From NCBI GenBank assembly GCA_030386875.1, contig CM059560.1, positions 26,654,183-26,718,182 on the forward strand: a stretch of DNA of 64,000 nt, given 5' to 3'. This DNA comes from Morinoia aosen. Lineage: Eukaryota; Arthropoda; Malacostraca; Amphipoda; Talitridae. Below, piece after piece: positions 36,101 to 64,000 of the stretch. The notes below the pieces were generated by a model. That model had not been told where the DNA came from, ran no database searches, and saw only the letters and a list, made by a program, of their open reading frames with translations. Numbering within the stretch: position 1 is the stretch's first letter; each line of letters starts with the position of its first letter. The position numbers were made by a program, and so were the translations under genes.

Positions 36101-39100
36101 ACTTGGTGGAAAAATTCTTCTATATTAAACTAGAGATCCATTTCAGATAACAAAATAACTTTTTTTTATTTTGCGGAAAACATCAAGGATTTTCACGCCA
36201 AACAAAATTTGCCAAAATGAATAAAAGAATGAAGTTAAAAACTATCTTGACCAATTGCAATTGCCTAGCGGTTCCATTATGAACAAAAAATACATCACTA
36301 TATTAGTTTAAGACGCCCTAGCCACAACAAAGGCGATTTGAAGACGGTGAAGAGGAGGAACCCTTAGTACGGACTGTAAAAAACGAGGAATCTATTCCCA
36401 TGAGTTCCCCGCACAGGATATTCTGCGCACAGAAACAGCAAGTTAAGAAGGAAGAATAGACACAAAAAGAGCAAAGAAGATATGCAAATTGAAAGAAGCA
36501 AAATAGGCCCACAAAAGAAGTCTCGAAGACCTACCTACAGCTGAGGTAACCTAACAGTATCCCTCCAAGGGTCGCCAGTCCCCATAACATGAGATAGACA
36601 AACTTAGCTAACAAAACCCTCGCCTGTCCAACCCTCCCGTGAATTAAATTGAGGTGAGTGGCCTGCTTCAGTGGACGTCTCTAATACTTCGATAAACATT
36701 TTACTAACTAACATTTGAACTAAGACTAAAGTATGAGATAGTAAAAGGAAAATTATGATAATTTATCATAAAAACATAAGAGACACGATATCGGGTAACT
36801 AAACTCAAATGCTACAGGCGCGAACGTATCCATTCTATTTAAACTTTCAAGTTTTTAAAGCCCGAAACATTAGGCAACGTACTACGGCACTTCTAACAAC
36901 CGCACAATAACAGAGCATCACTGTGAGCCTACACTGCCCCAAACGTATAACAACTGTGCAACATCATGAAGCCCAATCTGCTCACAGATGTAACACTTTG
37001 GCTGCGGCAGGTAGAACTGACGTTTGATATTCAATTCAAATTTAAAGTCAACTGAAGTATTATTATTATTACCATAAGAAAGTTTTAGCCTCCCTTTAAC
37101 CACGACAAAGATGTTTTAAGAGAGGAAAGAGGAAGGCACCATTTAGTATGGAGTTGAGGGAACGCGGAATCTATGCACAAGGTGCACAGAAACAGTAAGC
37201 TAGGAAAGAAGTTCATGAAACAAGAAAAAAGTCAAAGAAGAAAGTAGTAGGTGCTGAAAAACAGGACAGCAGTGAACCGAAAAAAGATGATCCGTAACAA
37301 AACAAAAACCTATTTTATTACAACAAAAAGGAGGCCTACCAAACCTTTAACTCGGGCCCTCACATGGTTCTCTTGGGAGCGCTAATTTCCATAGATACAA
37401 TAGTTGTATCCCCCTGAGGGGAGTCAACTGTAGTGAGCAATGTTGAAAATACCAAGCTTCAACTGGATCGTGTTTTCATTGAGTTTTGATCAAAAAAAAA
37501 TTAGAAACTTGAGTTTGTAACTACTGGTTGGTGAGCAGCATAATGAAAACTCCTTAAATTGACCACATGTGGCTCACGCCGCAGTCAAAGTGGAAAAGAC
37601 CGAGACTTGGGCCATGCCGGCGGGTGCTGGATACGAGTTGCACGAGTCGGCGCTACAAGCTCTTACGACACATACGGAGATCAACGTCACAAAAGCAAAG
37701 ATCTCAAAAAATAATGTGACATCAGTAGGACATGTAGGACCTACCATAACACTACAAGCTCTTGGGACACACTCGGAGGTCAATGGAATCTAAACCAACA
37801 GCAGCTCAGCGCACGCCTGAAACGTCTACAATAGTAAAGCAGCATGCGATAAATTGGATTCACAAAACGTTAAGCTACAAGCATGAGCCTCTGAAGCTCC
37901 GTAATATCTCTAATATTTAGATCGGCAGCACGAAAATCTCAACATGAAATATGAAACTGAACGTCATTCAAATTATATGGATGGAAAACTACACAGCTTG
38001 ACAAACACTTTAATGGGGACACAAAATGAATATTGATTTATTTGAAGAGGTGAAAATAGCAGAGCGTGATAAAAGTCGTCAAGATAATGCACGAAACTGA
38101 TCCCAAGCTAGAGTTCATCCATCAATGAAGCAAGAAACGTGCAGCTAAGCAGGTCCATCCATTCCTACGGCGCCTGGCGGCGTAACTTCCATCTTCTGAC
38201 TATGTAGATAGCACAAATTTTAAACTTCACAGCAACACCATCAGGCAGGGAAAGGAGCTCAAAAGGTTTCTAGAGGTTACTGTACTCCCCAAGGCAGGCA
38301 CCACAAAGGATCGTAAAGAAGCAAAACGTAAAGCTCCCGTGACTGAGGGAGGTGCTCCTTTGATGAGTGAACTATGCATTTCCAAATGCGAGTGAGCCTT
38401 ACCAAAAGATCAGCATCGGCCTAAGCGCGTAGCATGAAAAGCATCAAGTTTAAATCAAAAACGTGCTATATGTTCGAATAATATGCAAAATTCAGTCCAT
38501 CATTCAATAAACAGAACTCAGTTTACTCCAAAATCATATCATAGTGCTTCTGTTTGAGTTTCTGGGCATTCCCTGACTACTGCAACTAGCACTGTAAACT
38601 TCTTGCTTCTAATTCTCAGACGGAGAACACCAAGTTCATTTGTGATAAAGAACTATCAAAGATCTAATTTTGCACTCGAAAATCCCCATTAAAGAAACTG
38701 ACTTGAATTGTGGCTTGAACGAGTACAATTCTCTGCTCTGCACCATAGAAGACGGTACAGTGACACTTGAGAAAAGTAATCCCCTTTCAGTGAGCAAAAT
38801 AAGCAAGCGTGTTGAGGCCAACTCACGTTGAGATTCTGGTAGTCGCCGCTGTCCTCCGGAGGCCGGGGCTTGCACTTGCCACAGCAGAAGTTGCAGCAGC
38901 AGCAGAAGCAGCAACAGCAGAAGTAACCCAAGGTTGCTATTCCGCAGAACAGGCACAAAGCCTGCACATTCATGAAATTTTGGTCAACAATCAGTGTGTT
39001 CAACAGGAAAAGATTAGGAAATTGAATTAGAACATGTACAACATATACTGAAAATAACAAAGTACCGTACATATTGCACGACACCTACGTAAAATTAAGA

Positions 39101-42100
39101 AAGATTTATGATCAGTTGTGCTAAACATGGTGTATTGACAACTTTTCCATGAACTCTGTACCAATGTGTTTATAGGAGAGTCAGGGAAAAGGCTATCAGT
39201 AGAAGGTGAGTTGAAAACAGTGAGACGTTCATCAAGGTTTGATGGTTTCAGTACACATAAAAAAATCAATGCAATGTCTCGTAATTAAGTCCATCGCATA
39301 GGGTCTTGGAATCCATCACGCACGATGAACGTAAAACGACTGACTAAGTGTTTTGAAATTGAAAAAGAGCTGAAATGAGCAGCTAATTTCTGAAAATACT
39401 AGCCAACAGAATATTCCACAACTGGAACCATGCTCAGACAACCACGGACCAGTTAAACAGAACACCGCTCCCACTTTGAGGCAACGGTTGCTGGCAATGC
39501 TCACCTTGCACCATCCTGAATTCACAAGGAAGTAAGTGTTGACATTCTCTTCGCCGAACTGCTCGGCAATGTACAGCCCCAGAGACCCGTAAGTGTCATA
39601 GATGTTCCTCTTGGTCTGGTCGCTGAGAATGCGGTGGGCGTGGTTTACTTCTTTGAACTGCAAGCATAGGAGCATAGAGAGAATCTCTCACTAACGTCAG
39701 GCACCCAAGAAATTATTCAAGTTCTGGAAGCCTAATATTGTTGAGCTGAGAAAGAATGGTCATGAATAACCTGCCTGATTCATCAATAAAAAGCTCAGTA
39801 TCTGATCAATGTAAATGATGAGCCTACACACAACAATAGTTGCTAGTTGCTAAATAAACGAAGTTGCTTAGCAACTAACAAGGACAGTCATGCATAATCT
39901 GCCAGATTTCTGTAAAATGAACAAGCAGAAACCTTTACACAGCTGTTGCTATGGTGTATATCCTTTCATGGGTCATATAAGCTTCTACTATTTCTAAGTT
40001 GATATGGAGAATAAAAATGAATCACTCAACATAGTTGGTGTTATGTTCAAATGATTCAATTATAGTTTTGTCTCATCATAAGACAATATCTCACAATAGC
40101 TTGCTTAAATCCTCATAAGCACACTTCAACCAGTCCAGAATACAGCACTTCTAGAAAAGAAACGCCTTCCATCTAGAGCAAGAGTGGAGATCCTCACATC
40201 AAAGTGTGTGTATGAGTTAACTTCACTCTGTGGATTGGAATCTATGCTATTGAACAATGCACAGTCCACAACAAAGGCATCCCAAAAAGAAAAAGGAAGA
40301 AAACACCATTTAGTATGGAAATAAGGGAACGTGGAATTTATGCACAAAGTGTATAGAAACAGCAAGTTGAGAAAGAAGTTCATGAAATAAGATAGAAGTT
40401 GAAGAAGATTAGATTAGATTATTATTTAGTTTAAGCCTCCCTATCCTCAACAAATGAGATCCAAAGAGAGGAAAGAAGAAGGCACCATTTAGTATGGAGT
40501 TAAGGGAACGTGGAATCTATGCAGAAAGGGCACAGAAACAGTAAGATGAGAAAGAAGTTCATGAAACAAGATCAAAGTTGAAGAAGAAAGTAGTAGGTGC
40601 TGAAAAACAGGACAGCAGTGAACCGAAAAAAGATGGTCCGTAACAAAATAAAAACCTATTCTATTTCAACAAAAATAAAGCCTACCTAACCTTCAGCTCA
40701 GGCCCTTACATAGTCCCCCTGGGAGCGCTAATTCCCATAGATACATTAGTTGTATCCCCCTGAGGGGAGAAGTTGAAGAAGAAAGCAGTAATTTAAACAT
40801 AACAAAAACATTTCATTTCAACAAAAAGAAGGCATACTAAGGTTGGTCCCTCACATTTTCCTCCTAAGAGTGCTAATTCCCATAGATACTATAGTTATTC
40901 CCCTCCTGAGAGTTATCTTAGAAGCACGACCCGATCGAGGCATGCTGAAAGCTCTTCTGTAACTAGCTTCTGTATAATAACATCAACTGGAATAGAAAAA
41001 TACACTTTTACAAAACAGAAATCTTCCCATACCCAAAGCCTAAGTAAGCCTTTGTGATGAAAGTTAACCATGTGTAACTCAAAGTTTAGACCAACGTCTT
41101 TCTTCTACACATAGTGAATGCTAAAGTACAAATGCTAATGCCATAATGCCAAGCTGTTGCTAAGCAGCACTGGCGTGATGTCTGTTCGAAAATACACTAT
41201 CACATTCTAAGACACATTAGATTATTAGTTAGTTGAAGCCTCCTTCACAAAAGAAAGGTGTAAGTTATTTCAAAGACAGAAAGAATGATGGCAGTTAAGA
41301 GTGGAGTAGAGTAAAAGAATCTATGCATTAGGTGGGTACCCACAGGATACCTTGCACATAGAAACAGTGAGTTAGGAAGGCAGGGGATAAACTGTTGTAG
41401 ACAAAGTTGCAAAAAGCCATGAAAAGAGAGAACCCAAATGGGCATAAATGATAAATGTCCCCAAAGGTTTCTTTATAGCATAGGTAAAACATTCTATAGT
41501 CCCCAGTAAACCTTTAAAAGTGAACAAGGTGTACATTTGAATGTTTAATTTATTTCATAATCAATCGTAATATGGACTATTGATTTTGGCATGCTGAAAA
41601 CTCCAGAATGTTACAGGTCTTTTAGTTTGACCCTCCATTGTGTAATCACAGTAGAAATATCCACCATCCACAATCATTAAGAATTAAAACACTGTTACTT
41701 CAGTGCATTCCATTATTTTGCCTCCTCATTGTATGCATTCATCTTATTTCCACTTGACTATTAAACAGAACAAGTTACAGGTATTGTTGGTGCTTTTCAG
41801 TAGAGTAAATTTTTCCATTTTTCACCTTCAAGAAAAGCTACAGCAACTGAATTACTGAACATCCAAGAAGAATCCATGGCAGTTACCTTACATGAAATGA
41901 CTTTAAATGAACACTCCAATCTACTTCAATGTGTTGAACCCCTCAGGGGAATACAACTATTGTATGTATGAGAATTAGCACTTCCTGGGGTAAATGTAAG
42001 GTCCCAAGCTGAGAGTTAGATAGGCCTTCTTTGTGTTCAAATAAAAAAAATTTAGGTTGAGGATCATTTTTTTTTGTTCAATGCCGTCCCATTTTTCAGT

Positions 42101-58155: not shown

Positions 58156-58437
58156 AACATCGGCATCTTTGGGATGCTTTATTTCCAATCAAGCCTGATA
58201 CAAATGATCTTAAGCATTGGTTTTTCAAATGTCTTATAACTAATACTATATATATATTGGACACCATGATGGTTCCCCCGTAAAGCCGGTACCTATTTCC
58301 GACACCTGGGTCGAGTGGGGTATTGTGCTTGAGCTTTCCCTTATACCCAACGGGGAAAATCGCAGCGCCAGCGCCGGGATACGAACCCGCGACTCCAACA
58401 TACAAATCCGATCCCTTAACCGCTGTGCCACCGCGTA
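58156..58437 (-). mobile_element. tRNA-derived SINE, copy 1
   Basis: On the minus strand the head reads GGTGGCACAGCGGTTAAGGG, with an A-box-like TGGCACAGCGG, and about 40 bp later GGGTTCGTATCCCG, a B-box match to GGTTCRANNCC. This is the internal Pol III promoter of a tRNA-derived SINE. The body follows with TTTTCCCCGTTGGGTATAAG, CACTCGACCCAGGTGTCGG and the 3' end AAGCATCCCAAAGATGCCG. An 85% or better match by eye to the copy at 58987-59262 defines the unit. It is not a functional tRNA gene, because the body replaces the acceptor 3' half. Confidence 0.88.
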
Positions 58438-58986: not shown

Positions 58987-59262
58987 AACATCGGCATCTT
59001 TGGGATGCTTTATTTCCAATCAAGCCTGATACATATGATCTTAGCATTGGTTTTTCAAATATCTTATAACTAAGCCTATATATAGGACACCATGACGGTT
59101 CCCCCGTAAAGCCGGTACCCATTTCCGACACCTGGGTTGAGTGGGGTATTGTGCTTGAGCTTTCCCTTATACCCAACGGGGAAAATCTCTGCGCCAGCGC
59201 TGGGAACGAACCCGCGACTTCCAGCATACAAGTCCGTTCCCTTAACCGCTGTGCCACGGAGA
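58987..59262 (-). mobile_element. tRNA-derived SINE, copy 2
   Basis: The same family and orientation as the copy at 58156-58437. The head GTGGCACAGCGGTTAAGGGA and the B-box-like GGGTTCGTTCCCAG are retained, and the 3' end is AAGCATCCCAAAGATGCCG. The two copies are about 550 bp apart. Open frames of about 100 codons across both are products of the shared repeat. Confidence 0.88.
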
Positions 59263-59340: not shown

Positions 59341-60012
59341 ATAATACGAGGCGTGTCCGTAAAATAAGTTCCACGGATTTTTTCACATAAAAAACTGGTT
59401 TAATTGCAAAGAAAAGTACATTTTTGAAAAGTTCAGTCTTTCCTTCATTTTCTACATAATCGCCGTTGCGTTCTATGCACTTCTGCATTCGAGGCACCCA
59501 CTTCTTTGAACCAGAGTCATAGAACTCTGCCGCCTGTCCGAGTAGAAAACTAACAACCGCGTTTTGTACCTCTTCATCTGTCTGGAATTGGATTCCGCCA
59601 AGGTTTTTCTTCAACTTGGGGAAGAGATGGAAGTCACTTGGTGCTAAGTCTGGGCTTTAGAGTGGGTGAGACACCATTTCCAATCCAAATCTTTCGATGC
59701 GGGCTGTGGTTCGATTGGCGGTGTGCGGTCGGGCGTTGTCATGGTAAAAACGCACTCCTTTTGTCATCATTCCTCTTTTCTTGTTCTGATTTGCACGTCT
59801 AAGATTTTTCAAGGTCTCACAGTACCGTTCAGCATTGATTGTTGTCCCGCGAGGCATAAACTCGCACAACAAAACGCCTTTTCGATCCCAAAAAAGGCTA
59901 GCCATGATTTTCCCGGCAGACAGGATTTGTTTGAACTTCTTTGCTCTTAGCAAAGAAGGGTGCTTCCATTGCTTCAATTGCTCCTTTGTTTCCGGTGTCG
60001 TTTCCGGTGTAG
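59341..60012 (-). pseudogene. mariner transposase, C-terminal half, with 3' TIR
   Basis: The minus strand reads KEQLKQWKHPSLL, WDRKGVLLCEFMPRG, HDNARPHTA, SPDLAPSDFHLFPKLKKNLG and KWVPRMQKCIERNGDYVE. These are diagnostic blocks of a mariner (DD34D) transposase. The second and third catalytic Asp (HDNA and PSD) are 34 residues apart as expected. The N-terminal half, including the helix-turn-helix and the first Asp, is missing. One in-frame TAA (59659-59657) replaces the conserved Tyr before SPDLAP; the frame is otherwise open from about 60010 to 59342. The terminus near 59347-59370 (ACGAGGCGTGTCCGTAAAAT) is a TIR-like end beside TA. The break at about 60012 coincides with the start of the LINE. 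Confidence 0.9.
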
Positions 60013-60213
60013 TTGAGGCTGCGGTAGTGAGAGGAGGTGAGGTGTCGCTGCTCCAGCGAGGAGTTGTTTGGTGCTATTATTCAAGCACCTCAAAATGTGA
60101 TGAAAAACTGAGCATCCGTGAATGTACTTTCTACATCATTGAATCGTAAAACTGGAAAAAGTCATCAAAACAATCAGCTGTGAAAAGTGCTGAATTTCAT
60201 CGTGCAAAACTGA

Positions 60214-60558
60214 ATGGCGCTTTCTGTAAGCTATGTTTTAGACTCGAAGTGTGTGTGTCTGTGTGTGCAACAGACCCCGGAAATGGTCACTTCCGCCTCT
60301 CTCCCTGGTGAACCGAAACAACCCCCTCCCTCCTCCTCCGCATCCCCTGTCACTCGCACCTACTTGAACCGGAACAAGCTTACCACGGATACTAACGTGA
60401 AGCAAAAAACACCTGATGAAATAGCAAAGTTGAATTCTGTGAATACCAACATAAAATACAGTGATAAATTTACGCAATCCTCATCTGTTATTGCGAAATT
60501 TATGTTGAGTGTCAGTGAATATGAATTGAGTGTCTGTGGGTTTCTTTTCATCGCCTGA
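60214..60558 (+). other. Open frame in the LINE leader, unknown
   Basis: 114 codons starting MALSVSYVL, with a PPPSSSASPVTRTYLNRNKL stretch and a Lys/Asn-rich middle. It lies upstream of ORF1 in the same frame phase (60214 and 60759 differ by a non-multiple of three, so a shift would be needed to join them). No domain was recognised. It may be a short upstream ORF of the element or chance. Confidence 0.3.
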
Positions 60559-60758
60559 CAGTTTATTTTTCATCCCATTTTAAAAGCAATGTCACCTATG
60601 TCTCCTACATCTCAAACCATGGAAACCAAAATCGCAGCAAAATAGAAGTTGTACTCTGGCAAGACCGTGCCTCGTGTCAATGAACTCTCAGGGATCAAGC
60701 TTTGTAAACGATTTCAATAACTTCTAATCAGTGAACAAAACCTAAAATATCTTTCACG

Positions 60759-63152
60759 ATGTATTCATATGAAACTCGCTCTGCTACTCGTAAAGCGGCT
60801 TTATCTGGAGAAATAACATCCCTCACAACGCCGCTTGAAAACTCAAAGCCAAATCAGCAGAATATATCTGAACCGCTCATGAAACGGAAACGAAAACCAC
60901 CAAAAACGTCACGCGTAAAATCGCTCGTTCAAAAGCCTCAACCGCTCAAAATAACAGAAGAAACCCCGACGGTAAAGCAGTGCAACGTCAACGAAAGCAC
61001 TGCAACGCATCTACCATCACCAGAGCGAACCGACAGAGAGTCGACAGAAGGTCGCCCGACTGAGAGTCGAGTTTCTGAGCCACTCGCCACAGACATAAAT
61101 CTCTCAAGCGCTGCTGGTAACAACGAAATTTTCACACCGGCATCGCAAGCAGTCAAAACAAGCCCTAGCAAGAGCAAGGAAGAAGCCCCTGAGCCTGGAT
61201 TCTACAATCCAAGCAGTCCTCGAGAAGATACACCAGCGAAAGAATCAAGAAATGTCCCACGGGGTATGATGGGTAAAAATGTAGATTTGTCACTAGCTAC
61301 CGAGAATGATGCGATGAATGAGCCTAATATTTACTATTCTTATATTTCTAATATTTATAATTCTAGTGATCAGAATTACCTGAATATTACATCAAACAGC
61401 TTGCACCCGCTTCAAATTTCAATGTCCCATTTCATTCACCAGGTAAACAATAACCTGTCTCTCACTGTAGCCCACTTAACGAAAATGTCAAAACAGCGGA
61501 CGCCTCCAACTGCACTTTCGATATCTTCAACCGCTTCAAATATTAGGCTCATTACAGAACAACTTTTCAAATTGAACTTGCATGTAAGCTCTTTCGATCT
61601 TACGCCAAAGATCCCGTTTTCGACAAGCCAATTTTCTGACTCGCACTGCAAAAAAACTCTGGATACTTTTCTTGTCGGAGATAGAATTCTCACGGCGGTC
61701 CAGAGGACCGACATTGACCCCTCTTGTAAAATACGAACTGTAATTTCCAGTCGCATTGATGATCTCCTGAACGTAATTGACCAAATGCCTCAATTCACTA
61801 ACTACATCGTTTGCTTCAGAGACTTAAGCCTCTCACAACCTAACATTGCTAAAATCAAAGAACTCATATTTTCTAAGCATGCGTCAGCCCGTATTTGTGT
61901 CGTGAGTGCGTGTAGCGGTAAACAATTGCATCAGGCGCTGAACTTGTGCAAAACAAACGGTATTAAATTGATTCCGCTCCGAACAAACGGTGCAACTGAT
62001 CTCATAACTTGCAATGATGTTCGTACTTGGCCCGGTACAAGAGAAGAAACACACCATTTTCTTCAACAGATTGCTCTCAGATCGAGTCTAAAACTCACTT
62101 TACAATCTAGCTCATGTCTCATAAACTCAAATGGACTAGATGACAAAACTGAATGCTCCAACATCAGTACAAAACAGCAAAATGAATTGAAGAATTCTAC
62201 TCGATCACTAACTGCTTCCAGTGAAGTCTCCAGAAACCTGATTCATTGCTTGCCTATTGGGAATGAACGTTCCCCTCCATTGATCTCCGGCTACCGCAGA
62301 GTACCCACAAAAAACAGGTTCTCGTTATTATCTGATGCGAACTCAGAGAGCGATATACCCTCATCACAAACGAGTACAAATCATCAACAACCAACCACGT
62401 ACTCGGAAGCAGTAAAATCAGTACAAAGAGAAAAATTGCAGCAGAATCTCGGTCAAAATCCGATAAAATATTTACAGCCAAACCGCACACATAACCACCA
62501 CCAAGAGAGTGGAAAGAACAAGAGCACCTCTCATTTCTCAGTCGCTCACTCAACTAAAACTGGCCACAGCCCGCAAATTCATAGCCAGGAAAGCAAGAAA
62601 TCCAAACAACTCTCGTCTGAAAATGCTGAATGTCAGCCTAAATATCACTCAAGCCCCATGTACTCACTCGTCAGTACCACAATGGATGAATTAAAACGAT
62701 CATTGAAAGTGAAGCTGCATCCTACCATAGCCGATGGGCACTGCCTCCTTCATGCAGTAACTCACCAGCTTAAAACAAAATCGCCCTCAAAATGGAGTTA
62801 CAATTCCTTAAAAGCAGCAATAAAAAAAGAAAGCACTACAAATGAAAACAAATATGTCAATTTCCTTGCCAAGAAAAGCGGTGATCTACCTAGGCTCATA
62901 AGTAAATACATTGACGAAAAACATTTTGATCATGATGCTGGGGACTTAATACCACATATCATATCAAAGATCACTGGTAGGAGAATTTTCATCTTCGATG
63001 AGCAAGACGATGGTATTTGGAGAACAGTAGTCGACCCCTCACCAGAAGGATCAACTAATAACCATCCGTTGATGCTTCATCGGAAAAATTATCACTACAG
63101 TACCCTTGTTGCACAAGACAAAAACAAGACTGATATCACATCATCTTCATGA
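60759..63152 (+). CDS. LINE ORF1 protein: SGNH-like region plus OTU-type cysteine protease domain
   Basis: 797 residues. Residues 1-200 are Ser/Thr/Pro/Lys-rich and low in complexity. Residues about 300-440 resemble the SGNH-esterase-like domain known from CR1/L2-type ORF1 proteins (LVGDRIL at 305-311, a hydrophobic YIVCF strand, ICVVSACSG, DLITCNDVRTWPG). However, the nucleophile position in GDS reads GDR (R309), so esterase activity is unlikely. Residues about 640-785 match the OTU fold: D659-G-H-C662 (IADGHCLLHAV) supplies the catalytic Cys, the middle DAGDLIPHIISKITG fits the OTU core, and H779 in NYHYSTLV is the expected His. It ends in TGA at 63150-63152. The OTU call is by motif; the SGNH call is weaker. 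Confidence 0.8.
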   Translation: MYSYETRSATRKAALSGEITSLTTPLENSKPNQQNISEPLMKRKRKPPKTSRVKSLVQKPQPLKITEETPTVKQCNVNESTATHLPSPERTDRESTEGRPTESRVSEPLATDINLSSAAGNNEIFTPASQAVKTSPSKSKEEAPEPGFYNPSSPREDTPAKESRNVPRGMMGKNVDLSLATENDAMNEPNIYYSYISNIYNSSDQNYLNITSNSLHPLQISMSHFIHQVNNNLSLTVAHLTKMSKQRTPPTALSISSTASNIRLITEQLFKLNLHVSSFDLTPKIPFSTSQFSDSHCKKTLDTFLVGDRILTAVQRTDIDPSCKIRTVISSRIDDLLNVIDQMPQFTNYIVCFRDLSLSQPNIAKIKELIFSKHASARICVVSACSGKQLHQALNLCKTNGIKLIPLRTNGATDLITCNDVRTWPGTREETHHFLQQIALRSSLKLTLQSSSCLINSNGLDDKTECSNISTKQQNELKNSTRSLTASSEVSRNLIHCLPIGNERSPPLISGYRRVPTKNRFSLLSDANSESDIPSSQTSTNHQQPTTYSEAVKSVQREKLQQNLGQNPIKYLQPNRTHNHHQESGKNKSTSHFSVAHSTKTGHSPQIHSQESKKSKQLSSENAECQPKYHSSPMYSLVSTTMDELKRSLKVKLHPTIADGHCLLHAVTHQLKTKSPSKWSYNSLKAAIKKESTTNENKYVNFLAKKSGDLPRLISKYIDEKHFDHDAGDLIPHIISKITGRRIFIFDEQDDGIWRTVVDPSPEGSTNNHPLMLHRKNYHYSTLVAQDKNKTDITSSS

Positions 63153-64000
63153 CAAAATACTGTTGTCCAGTTAAATGGCAGTCTCTCAAATACACCAGAT
63201 GCTAGACTTGACACTCTGGGCAACAATGATAAAATCAATAAATCCACGAAACAGTCCCTACCAAAAAATCCCTCTGATGCCACAAATAATCGCCATAAAA
63301 TAAAAAACAATAAAATTAAACATATCAATGCTCGTAGCCTCTTTAGTAAACTGGATGACATTAGAGTAATGTTGGTCACAGAAGACATTGACATTTTATG
63401 TGTTTCCGAGACATGGTTCGATTCGCGAACTCAGAGCTCCTTTTTCAATATTCCCGATTACGTGCTGTACCGCCATGACGGCGTTAAAAATAGCAAAGGT
63501 AGTGGTTCTTGTATTTTCGTAAAAGAAGTTTACCAGTCGTCTTTACTTTTAACAAACGAAGTGTGCGAAGGCATAGAGATGGTTTGGTTGAAAGTGCAAA
63601 TAAATAAACATAAATCCATCATTACCGGCAGCCTTTACCGGCACCCATCAGCTTCTCTACCAAAAACAGTAGAGTTCATTGAGAAAATTTTCAAAGAAAT
63701 TTTAGCTACAAAAATGTCATTCTTTGCTTTCGGTGATTTTAATATTGACCTAACGGATGAAGAAAATCAGCTTAGCAGACTGTTGTACAAACTAAACCTT
63801 TCACAAATGGTTAAAGAACCGACTCGCGTTACAAGTGTATCTAAGACTCTCCTCGATCTAGCAATCACAAACAAACCTACGGCAATACTAAATACAGTAA
63901 TATCACCCTCTGTCGCCGATCACCACTCTGTAGAATGTAAAATTAATATTGCAAAGGAAAGACAAAACTATCGTCTCATGACTTACCGCCTAAAAAGTCA
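63153..64000 (+). CDS. LINE ORF2 (partial): apurinic-type endonuclease domain
   Basis: Directly after the ORF1 stop the same frame stays open to the window edge (282 codons). From 63318 it reads KHINARSLFSKLDDIR, DILCVSETW, GSLYRHPSA, FAFGDFNIDL and SVADHHSVE. These are the APE-endonuclease motifs of LINEs (catalytic Asn in NARS, Glu in SETW, Tyr/Arg block, Asp/Asn in GDFN, Asp-His in DHH), which nick the target DNA. There is no in-frame ATG between 63153 and the first catalytic Asn; the first one (63369-63371) falls inside the domain. Translation therefore needs read-through of the TGA, re-initiation at a non-ATG codon, or a single ORF was broken here. Confidence 0.9.

Follow-up and report, generated by a model that had tools for sequence, protein, structure and literature searches.

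DNA transposons, LINEs with restriction-like endonucleases (Ulp1) and herpesviruses have all captured proteases directed at ubiquitin or its relatives (PMC4640811, PMC2836005 and PMC9741609, in extract). Among the DNA transposons, Ginger1 elements carry OTU or Ulp1 domains and Helitrons carry OTU domains (PMC2836005, in extract), while OTU and tegument-like deubiquitinases are both found in Helentrons (PMC9741609, in extract). For the tegument-like domains of Helitrons, a role in keeping transposition proteins from the proteasome was proposed in the extract of PMC9741609, where the authors also note a lack of activity tests for the OTU domains of transposons. An OTU-like domain is reported for adintovirus PolB as well (PMC11071296, in extract).

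In the CR1/L2 elements of the Jockey superfamily, some ORF1 proteins possess an SGNH esterase, and some elements consist of a single ORF (PMC4120745 and PMC3905857, both in extract). A survey of 448 elements of the Jockey superfamily names, as ORF1 domains in its Table 1, PHD, RRM, CCHC, Tnp22, esterase, coiled coil, leucine zipper and zinc finger (PMC4120745, in extract).

Open reading frames at the end of the window

The last 3.2 kb of the window (the whole stretch of DNA that was analysed, 64,000 nt) is made up of an open reading frame of 797 codons (ORF1), one TGA and a second open frame (Table 1). The stop-to-stop frame of ORF1 starts at 60735 and stays open for 805 codons, a length with a chance of about 1e-21 if independent bases are assumed. 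ORF1 and the endonuclease (EN) encoded behind it share a frame of 1,087 codons in which the TGA is the sole stop. The first-pass annotation had described an ORF1 of 797 residues, in which DGHC occupies 659-662 and HYSTLV lies at 779, and a LINE endonuclease behind it. All of these were located at the places given, and the EN domain was recognized by Pfam, both as Exo_endo_phos (PF03372, E=9.1e-7) and as Exo_endo_phos_2 (PF14529, E=1.3e-6), each above its cut-off. Its NARSL, SETW, GDFN and ADHH, which we take to be LINE endonuclease motifs, follow one another in order. The element runs past position 64000, with the window edge falling inside it, so that the only copy at hand is incomplete.

RRM, CCHC and PHD families were absent from the Pfam search of the 797-aa ORF at E<=1, as well as from searches of the N-terminal 280 residues and residues 448-634 at E<=10, and a motif search for the CCHC pattern found none. 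Three segments queried against NCBIfam gave no family, and the PHROGs search gave only phrog_3719 (E=0.1), whose function is unknown.

Directly upstream of ORF1 lies an ORF of 114 codons (60214-60558) that contains a proline/serine stretch. It matched no Pfam family, and its codon score was weakly positive (0.047 per codon, with a table trained on ORF1). A mariner-type transposase fragment is located at 59660-60073 on the - strand, about 0.7 kb upstream of ORF1 (Transposase_1, E=7.3e-21).

Table 1 Features of the element at the end of the window.
Feature	Position	Strand	Basis
ORF1, 797 aa + TGA stop	60759..63152	+	Open reading frame
Alternating alpha/beta segment, residues 278-450	61590..62108	+	Predicted, AF2 single-sequence pLDDT 40
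LVGDRIL	61671-61691	+	Inside the residues 278-450 segment
OTU-like cysteine protease domain, residues 635-789	62661..63125	+	Sub-threshold Pfam PF02338, Foldseek ranking
DGHC, putative nucleophile Cys662 (residues 659-662)	62733..62744	+	Motif position
HYSTLV, putative catalytic His779 (residues 779-784)	63093..63110	+	Motif position
TGA separating ORF1 from EN, same reading frame; CAA next	63150..63152	+	Frame analysis
Open frame after TGA, 282 codons, off window end: linker, then AP-type endonuclease	63153..63998	+	Pfam
EN motifs NARSL 63327, SETW 63405, GDFN 63732, ADHH 63915	63327..63926	+	Motif positions, in order

An OTU-like domain at the end of ORF1

OTU proteases possess a DGxC block with the nucleophile, followed by a C-terminal His motif (HY). 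Both are present in ORF1 in the OTU order. Cys662 of the DGHC block, presumably the nucleophile, is the sole Cys within residues 635-797, and HY is found at 779-780, where we take His779 of HYSTLV to be the catalytic His. When the whole ORF was searched against the 24,736 models of Pfam, the OTU family PF02338 was matched with E=0.0012 and 19.8 bits, and residues 633-797 matched the same family with E=1.9e-4 and 22.4 bits. The gathering cut-off of PF02338 is 23.3 bits, so both scores are under it, that of the whole ORF by 3.5 bits and that of the domain by 0.9. Of the 128 positions of the profile, the match spans 2-66 at most. No OTU match was reported for segments starting at Cys662 or later, or for the last 104 residues of ORF1 alone, in searches where the HMMER filters drop weak matches. 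As judged from these comparisons, the OTU match depends on the DGHC block, and at the level of sequence the C-terminal half of the domain is supported solely through the His motif.

No OTU hit in Pfam was obtained with nine shuffles of the domain or with its reversal, and two of these ten controls matched other families with E of about 0.06. A sequence search of the PDB gave four matches at E<=1, all to non-OTU proteins (best E 0.17). A pairwise comparison was also made with L002, one bacterial sequence that was judged to be OTU by eye and had been found through the DGHC block itself. Locally, none of 5000 shuffles reached the score of this alignment; end to end, 4 of 5000 did so, and with the DGHC block removed the number rose to 1521 of 5000. 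The signal was carried by the block, and the comparison was dropped as evidence for the domain.

The AlphaFold2 single-sequence model of the domain is of low confidence (pLDDT 39). Its helices precede its strands, and His779 opens the final strand. In a Foldseek search of the PDB, the best 50 of 129 matches (E<=10) were all to OTU-family chains, none of them significant (best E 0.092); 37 were assigned by title and 13 belong to entries that we take to be OTU-family (3von, 4ksl, 3tmo and 6ks5), and many are redundant copies that represent far fewer proteins. The best 50 of 243 matches in BFVD (E<=10) comprised named OTU and viral proteases, and also non-proteases by name, with a best E of 0.039, which is not significant. 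The fold ranking may in part reflect the same DGHC block.

The OTU-type protease proposed in the first-pass annotation is thus borne out in part: the Pfam match, the sole Cys, the His motif and the fold ranking speak for it, whereas the score below the Pfam cut-off speaks against it; a profile match was obtained, and it stays under that cut-off. We regard it as quite unlikely that the resemblance is due to chance or marks a dead remnant, that is, a DGHC-like block lacking OTU fold or catalysis. Such an origin would agree with a sub-threshold score driven by a single block and with the fact that DGHC-type motifs arise by chance (a DGHC[LF][LF]-type pattern occurs in 22 bacterial stretches, and by eye HY follows about 110 residues on in only two of the peptides listed, L002 and L009). 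On the other hand, the E-value already covers the whole Pfam library, and three observations agree with one another: the presence of the His motif, the order of helices and strands, and the ranking of the fold matches. The OTU-like domain is, in our estimate, very probably real, and with less confidence we predict that it is catalytically active.

The endonuclease and the TGA junction

The element is putatively the 5′ part of an animal non-LTR retrotransposon (LINE). This label rests on the endonuclease, because the reverse transcriptase (RT), the 3′ tail and the target-site duplication fall beyond the window. A rolling-circle transposon of the Helentron type, with an OTU protease and a CR1-derived AP endonuclease, would be a different source of the same two domains. 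Helentrons are known to carry OTU proteases as well as an AP endonuclease at the C-terminus, and the endonuclease of a mite element matches the same PF14529 at 1.25e-6 (PMC4067079 and PMC6431247, both in extract). However, Rep and helicase families were absent from the Pfam search of the 797-aa ORF at E<=1, and the Helentron endonuclease follows the helicase, while here it follows the OTU-like domain. We consider a Helentron-like origin highly improbable.

The first-pass annotation had not pointed out that EN continues the frame of ORF1, with a single TGA in between. In the 58 codons from the TGA to EN, zero stops occur in the shared frame, and 2 and 10 in the other frames. With the codon table trained on ORF1, this stretch scores 0.074 per codon, compared with 0.068 for the EN frame, by a small margin over frame 2 (0.024) and the unassigned upstream ORF (0.047). 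The first ATG of the frame after the TGA is at 63369, behind the Asn motif of EN at 63327, and near-cognate codons such as CTG (63216) and ACG (63246) lie ahead of it. An ATGA at 63149, in which an ATG overlaps the stop out of frame, was considered as the start of ORF2 and rejected, with 10 stops in the next 57 codons; an indel in the present copy could hide an ORF2 start there.

Given the shared frame and the lack of an ATG before the Asn motif of EN, the junction is to be explained by readthrough of the stop, by a fused ORF that has suffered a nonsense mutation or by a non-AUG start. Under readthrough or a fused ORF, the OTU-like domain would belong to a polyprotein and be placed immediately ahead of EN. 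Some plus-strand RNA viruses have OTU-fold proteases that cut themselves off within a polyprotein, and the domain could be chiefly a protease of this kind, cutting itself from EN in an ORF1-OTU-EN-RT product made by UGA readthrough or from a fused ORF. The single TGA in a common frame that is open after it, the lack of an ATG before the Asn motif and the position of the domain immediately before EN are all in line with this, but cellular OTU proteases are known as deubiquitinases, and the TGA might be no more than a nonsense mutation. Cleavage of the polyprotein as the chief role is the main rival to the function that we favour, though unlikely in our view.

The nonsense mutation itself, in a copy of a single-ORF element and with no readthrough, is quite possible, if somewhat short of probable, and would be compatible with a deubiquitinase. 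It would account for just one stop across the 3.2 kb frame, and a change of CGA to TGA would need one CpG transition; single-ORF subgroups of CR1 and L2 are on record (PMC4120745, in extract). Against it, the 1,087 codons are otherwise free of stops and the TGA falls within the stretch from the domains of ORF1 to EN.

Residues 278-450

The segment of residues 278-450 had been described as a degenerate SGNH-like domain in which Arg takes the place of the Ser nucleophile. No SGNH or GDSL family was matched in Pfam at E<=1, either by the whole ORF or by its segments, and the top Pfam family for residues 278-450 was DUF2325 (E=0.018), far below its own cut-off. The sequence search of the PDB with these residues gave nothing significant (the best match was tryptophan synthase, E 0.2), and among the best 50 of 791 Foldseek matches (E<=10), obtained with a model of pLDDT 40, no entry was named SGNH hydrolase. 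The proposal found no profile, sequence or listed fold match, and the alternating alpha/beta pattern at pLDDT 40 is what speaks for it. The replacement of Ser by Arg has no anchor, since the SGNH assignment on which it was built found no support. Descent of the segment from a remote SGNH relative would be compatible with these single-sequence tests.

Search for relatives and other features of the window

A second copy of the element was not found within the 64-kb window. Six pattern scans of IMG/VR viral contigs gave no relative: three of them matched 4, 3 and 8 stretches, none related by tblastn, two found nothing, and in the 11 loci of another, tblastn at E<=0.1 matched neither EN nor the OTU-like domain. 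Two of these 11 loci (L028 and L032) gave the same match to residues 278-450 (E=0.025, 30 residues), which was taken as chance. One pattern scan of prokaryote genomes returned 22 bacterial loci and no LINE, with a best EN match at E=0.32; matches to the OTU block in L013 (E=0.002) and L002 (E=0.009) were set aside, being short and confined to the pattern used for the scan. In phage records, EN was unmatched at E<=0.001 and the OTU-like domain at E<=0.1. Since the IMG/VR, prokaryote and phage sets are non-eukaryotic and the patterns narrow, absence from them is uninformative on the abundance of the family.

Elsewhere in the window, probable exons of DNAJC5 (cysteine string protein) were located at 38692-39687 on the - strand. 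There, a match of 46 residues to DnaJ homolog subfamily C member 5 (2ctw, E=4.7e-20) was obtained, and a string of Cys residues lies in the ORF neighbouring this match, where no Pfam family was found. These exons suggest an animal host. Two copies, 95% alike, occupy 58251-58379 and 59077-59205; their neighbourhood on the - strand has the look of a tRNA-derived SINE, with what we take to be box A and box B. ARAGORN detected no tRNA and Rfam no match in the window. A 113-base repeat, itself a piece of a larger repeat that reaches 300 bases, occurs in eleven same-strand copies between 9634 and 51119 (identity of at least 60% to the reference); partial copies in the opposite orientation lie near 2.9-3.9 kb and 42.1-42.3 kb.

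Proposed function

The reading that we favour, with moderate confidence, is that the locus is the 5′ part of a LINE whose ORF1 ends in an OTU-fold deubiquitinase, with EN in the same frame behind a TGA, as a probable or ancestral polyprotein. The ORF1 protein would end in a cysteine protease domain of predicted OTU fold, most likely a deubiquitinase, with Cys662 as putative nucleophile and His779 as its partner. The domain would travel with the RNA-protein particle of the element and may free proteins of the element itself, or bound host factors, of ubiquitin. In this way it could protect the particle, a role we suggest because a like one has been put forward for the tegument-like domains of Helitrons (PMC9741609). 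An ORF1-OTU-EN polyprotein would probably make up some of the product now, or did so in an ancestor of the present copy, and the common frame of ORF1 and EN makes this directly testable.

A stronger version, in which programmed UGA readthrough yields an ORF1-OTU-EN-RT polyprotein and the OTU domain both cuts ORF1 from ORF2 and deubiquitinates the particle, seems very unlikely to us. If true, it would mean that a virus-like gag-pro-pol layout had been reached independently by a non-LTR retrotransposon.

Comparison with known elements

The element resembles CR1/L2 (Jockey superfamily) in having an accessory, modular and variable ORF1 ahead of an AP endonuclease, as far as the extracts of PMC4120745 and PMC3905857 go. 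It differs in that OTU is missing from the ORF1 domains in Table 1 of the survey, as contained in the extract of PMC4120745, and in that the present ORF1 is without a match to RRM, CCHC or PHD. NeSL and Utopia are likewise LINEs with a cysteine protease (PMC4640811, in extract), but that protease is Ulp1-like and not OTU, the endonuclease is restriction-like and not of the AP type, and the protease is N-terminal in one protein.

Ginger1 and Helitrons/Helentrons share with the present element a transposon-borne OTU domain (PMC2836005, PMC4067079 and PMC9741609, in extract), whereas they are DNA transposons with an integrase-like transposase or Rep/helicase. As in viral OTU proteases, the domain is part of a larger protein. 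The structure matches listed include solved viral OTUs along with proteins of chrysovirus, tymovirus and giant-virus origin; the similarity is weak and seen at the level of structure only (E 0.039 or worse).

Among the papers listed in searches of the open-access literature, none was seen to describe an OTU domain in a LINE ORF1; mention elsewhere, for example in Repbase reports, is possible. Transposon-borne OTU domains and protease-carrying LINEs are already known, and the present element is most likely a new variation on these. If an OTU domain is indeed carried by a LINE of the AP-endonuclease type, one more class of element would join those that have captured proteases directed at ubiquitin or its relatives, and ubiquitin-dependent control of LINE particles would be suggested as a common pressure.
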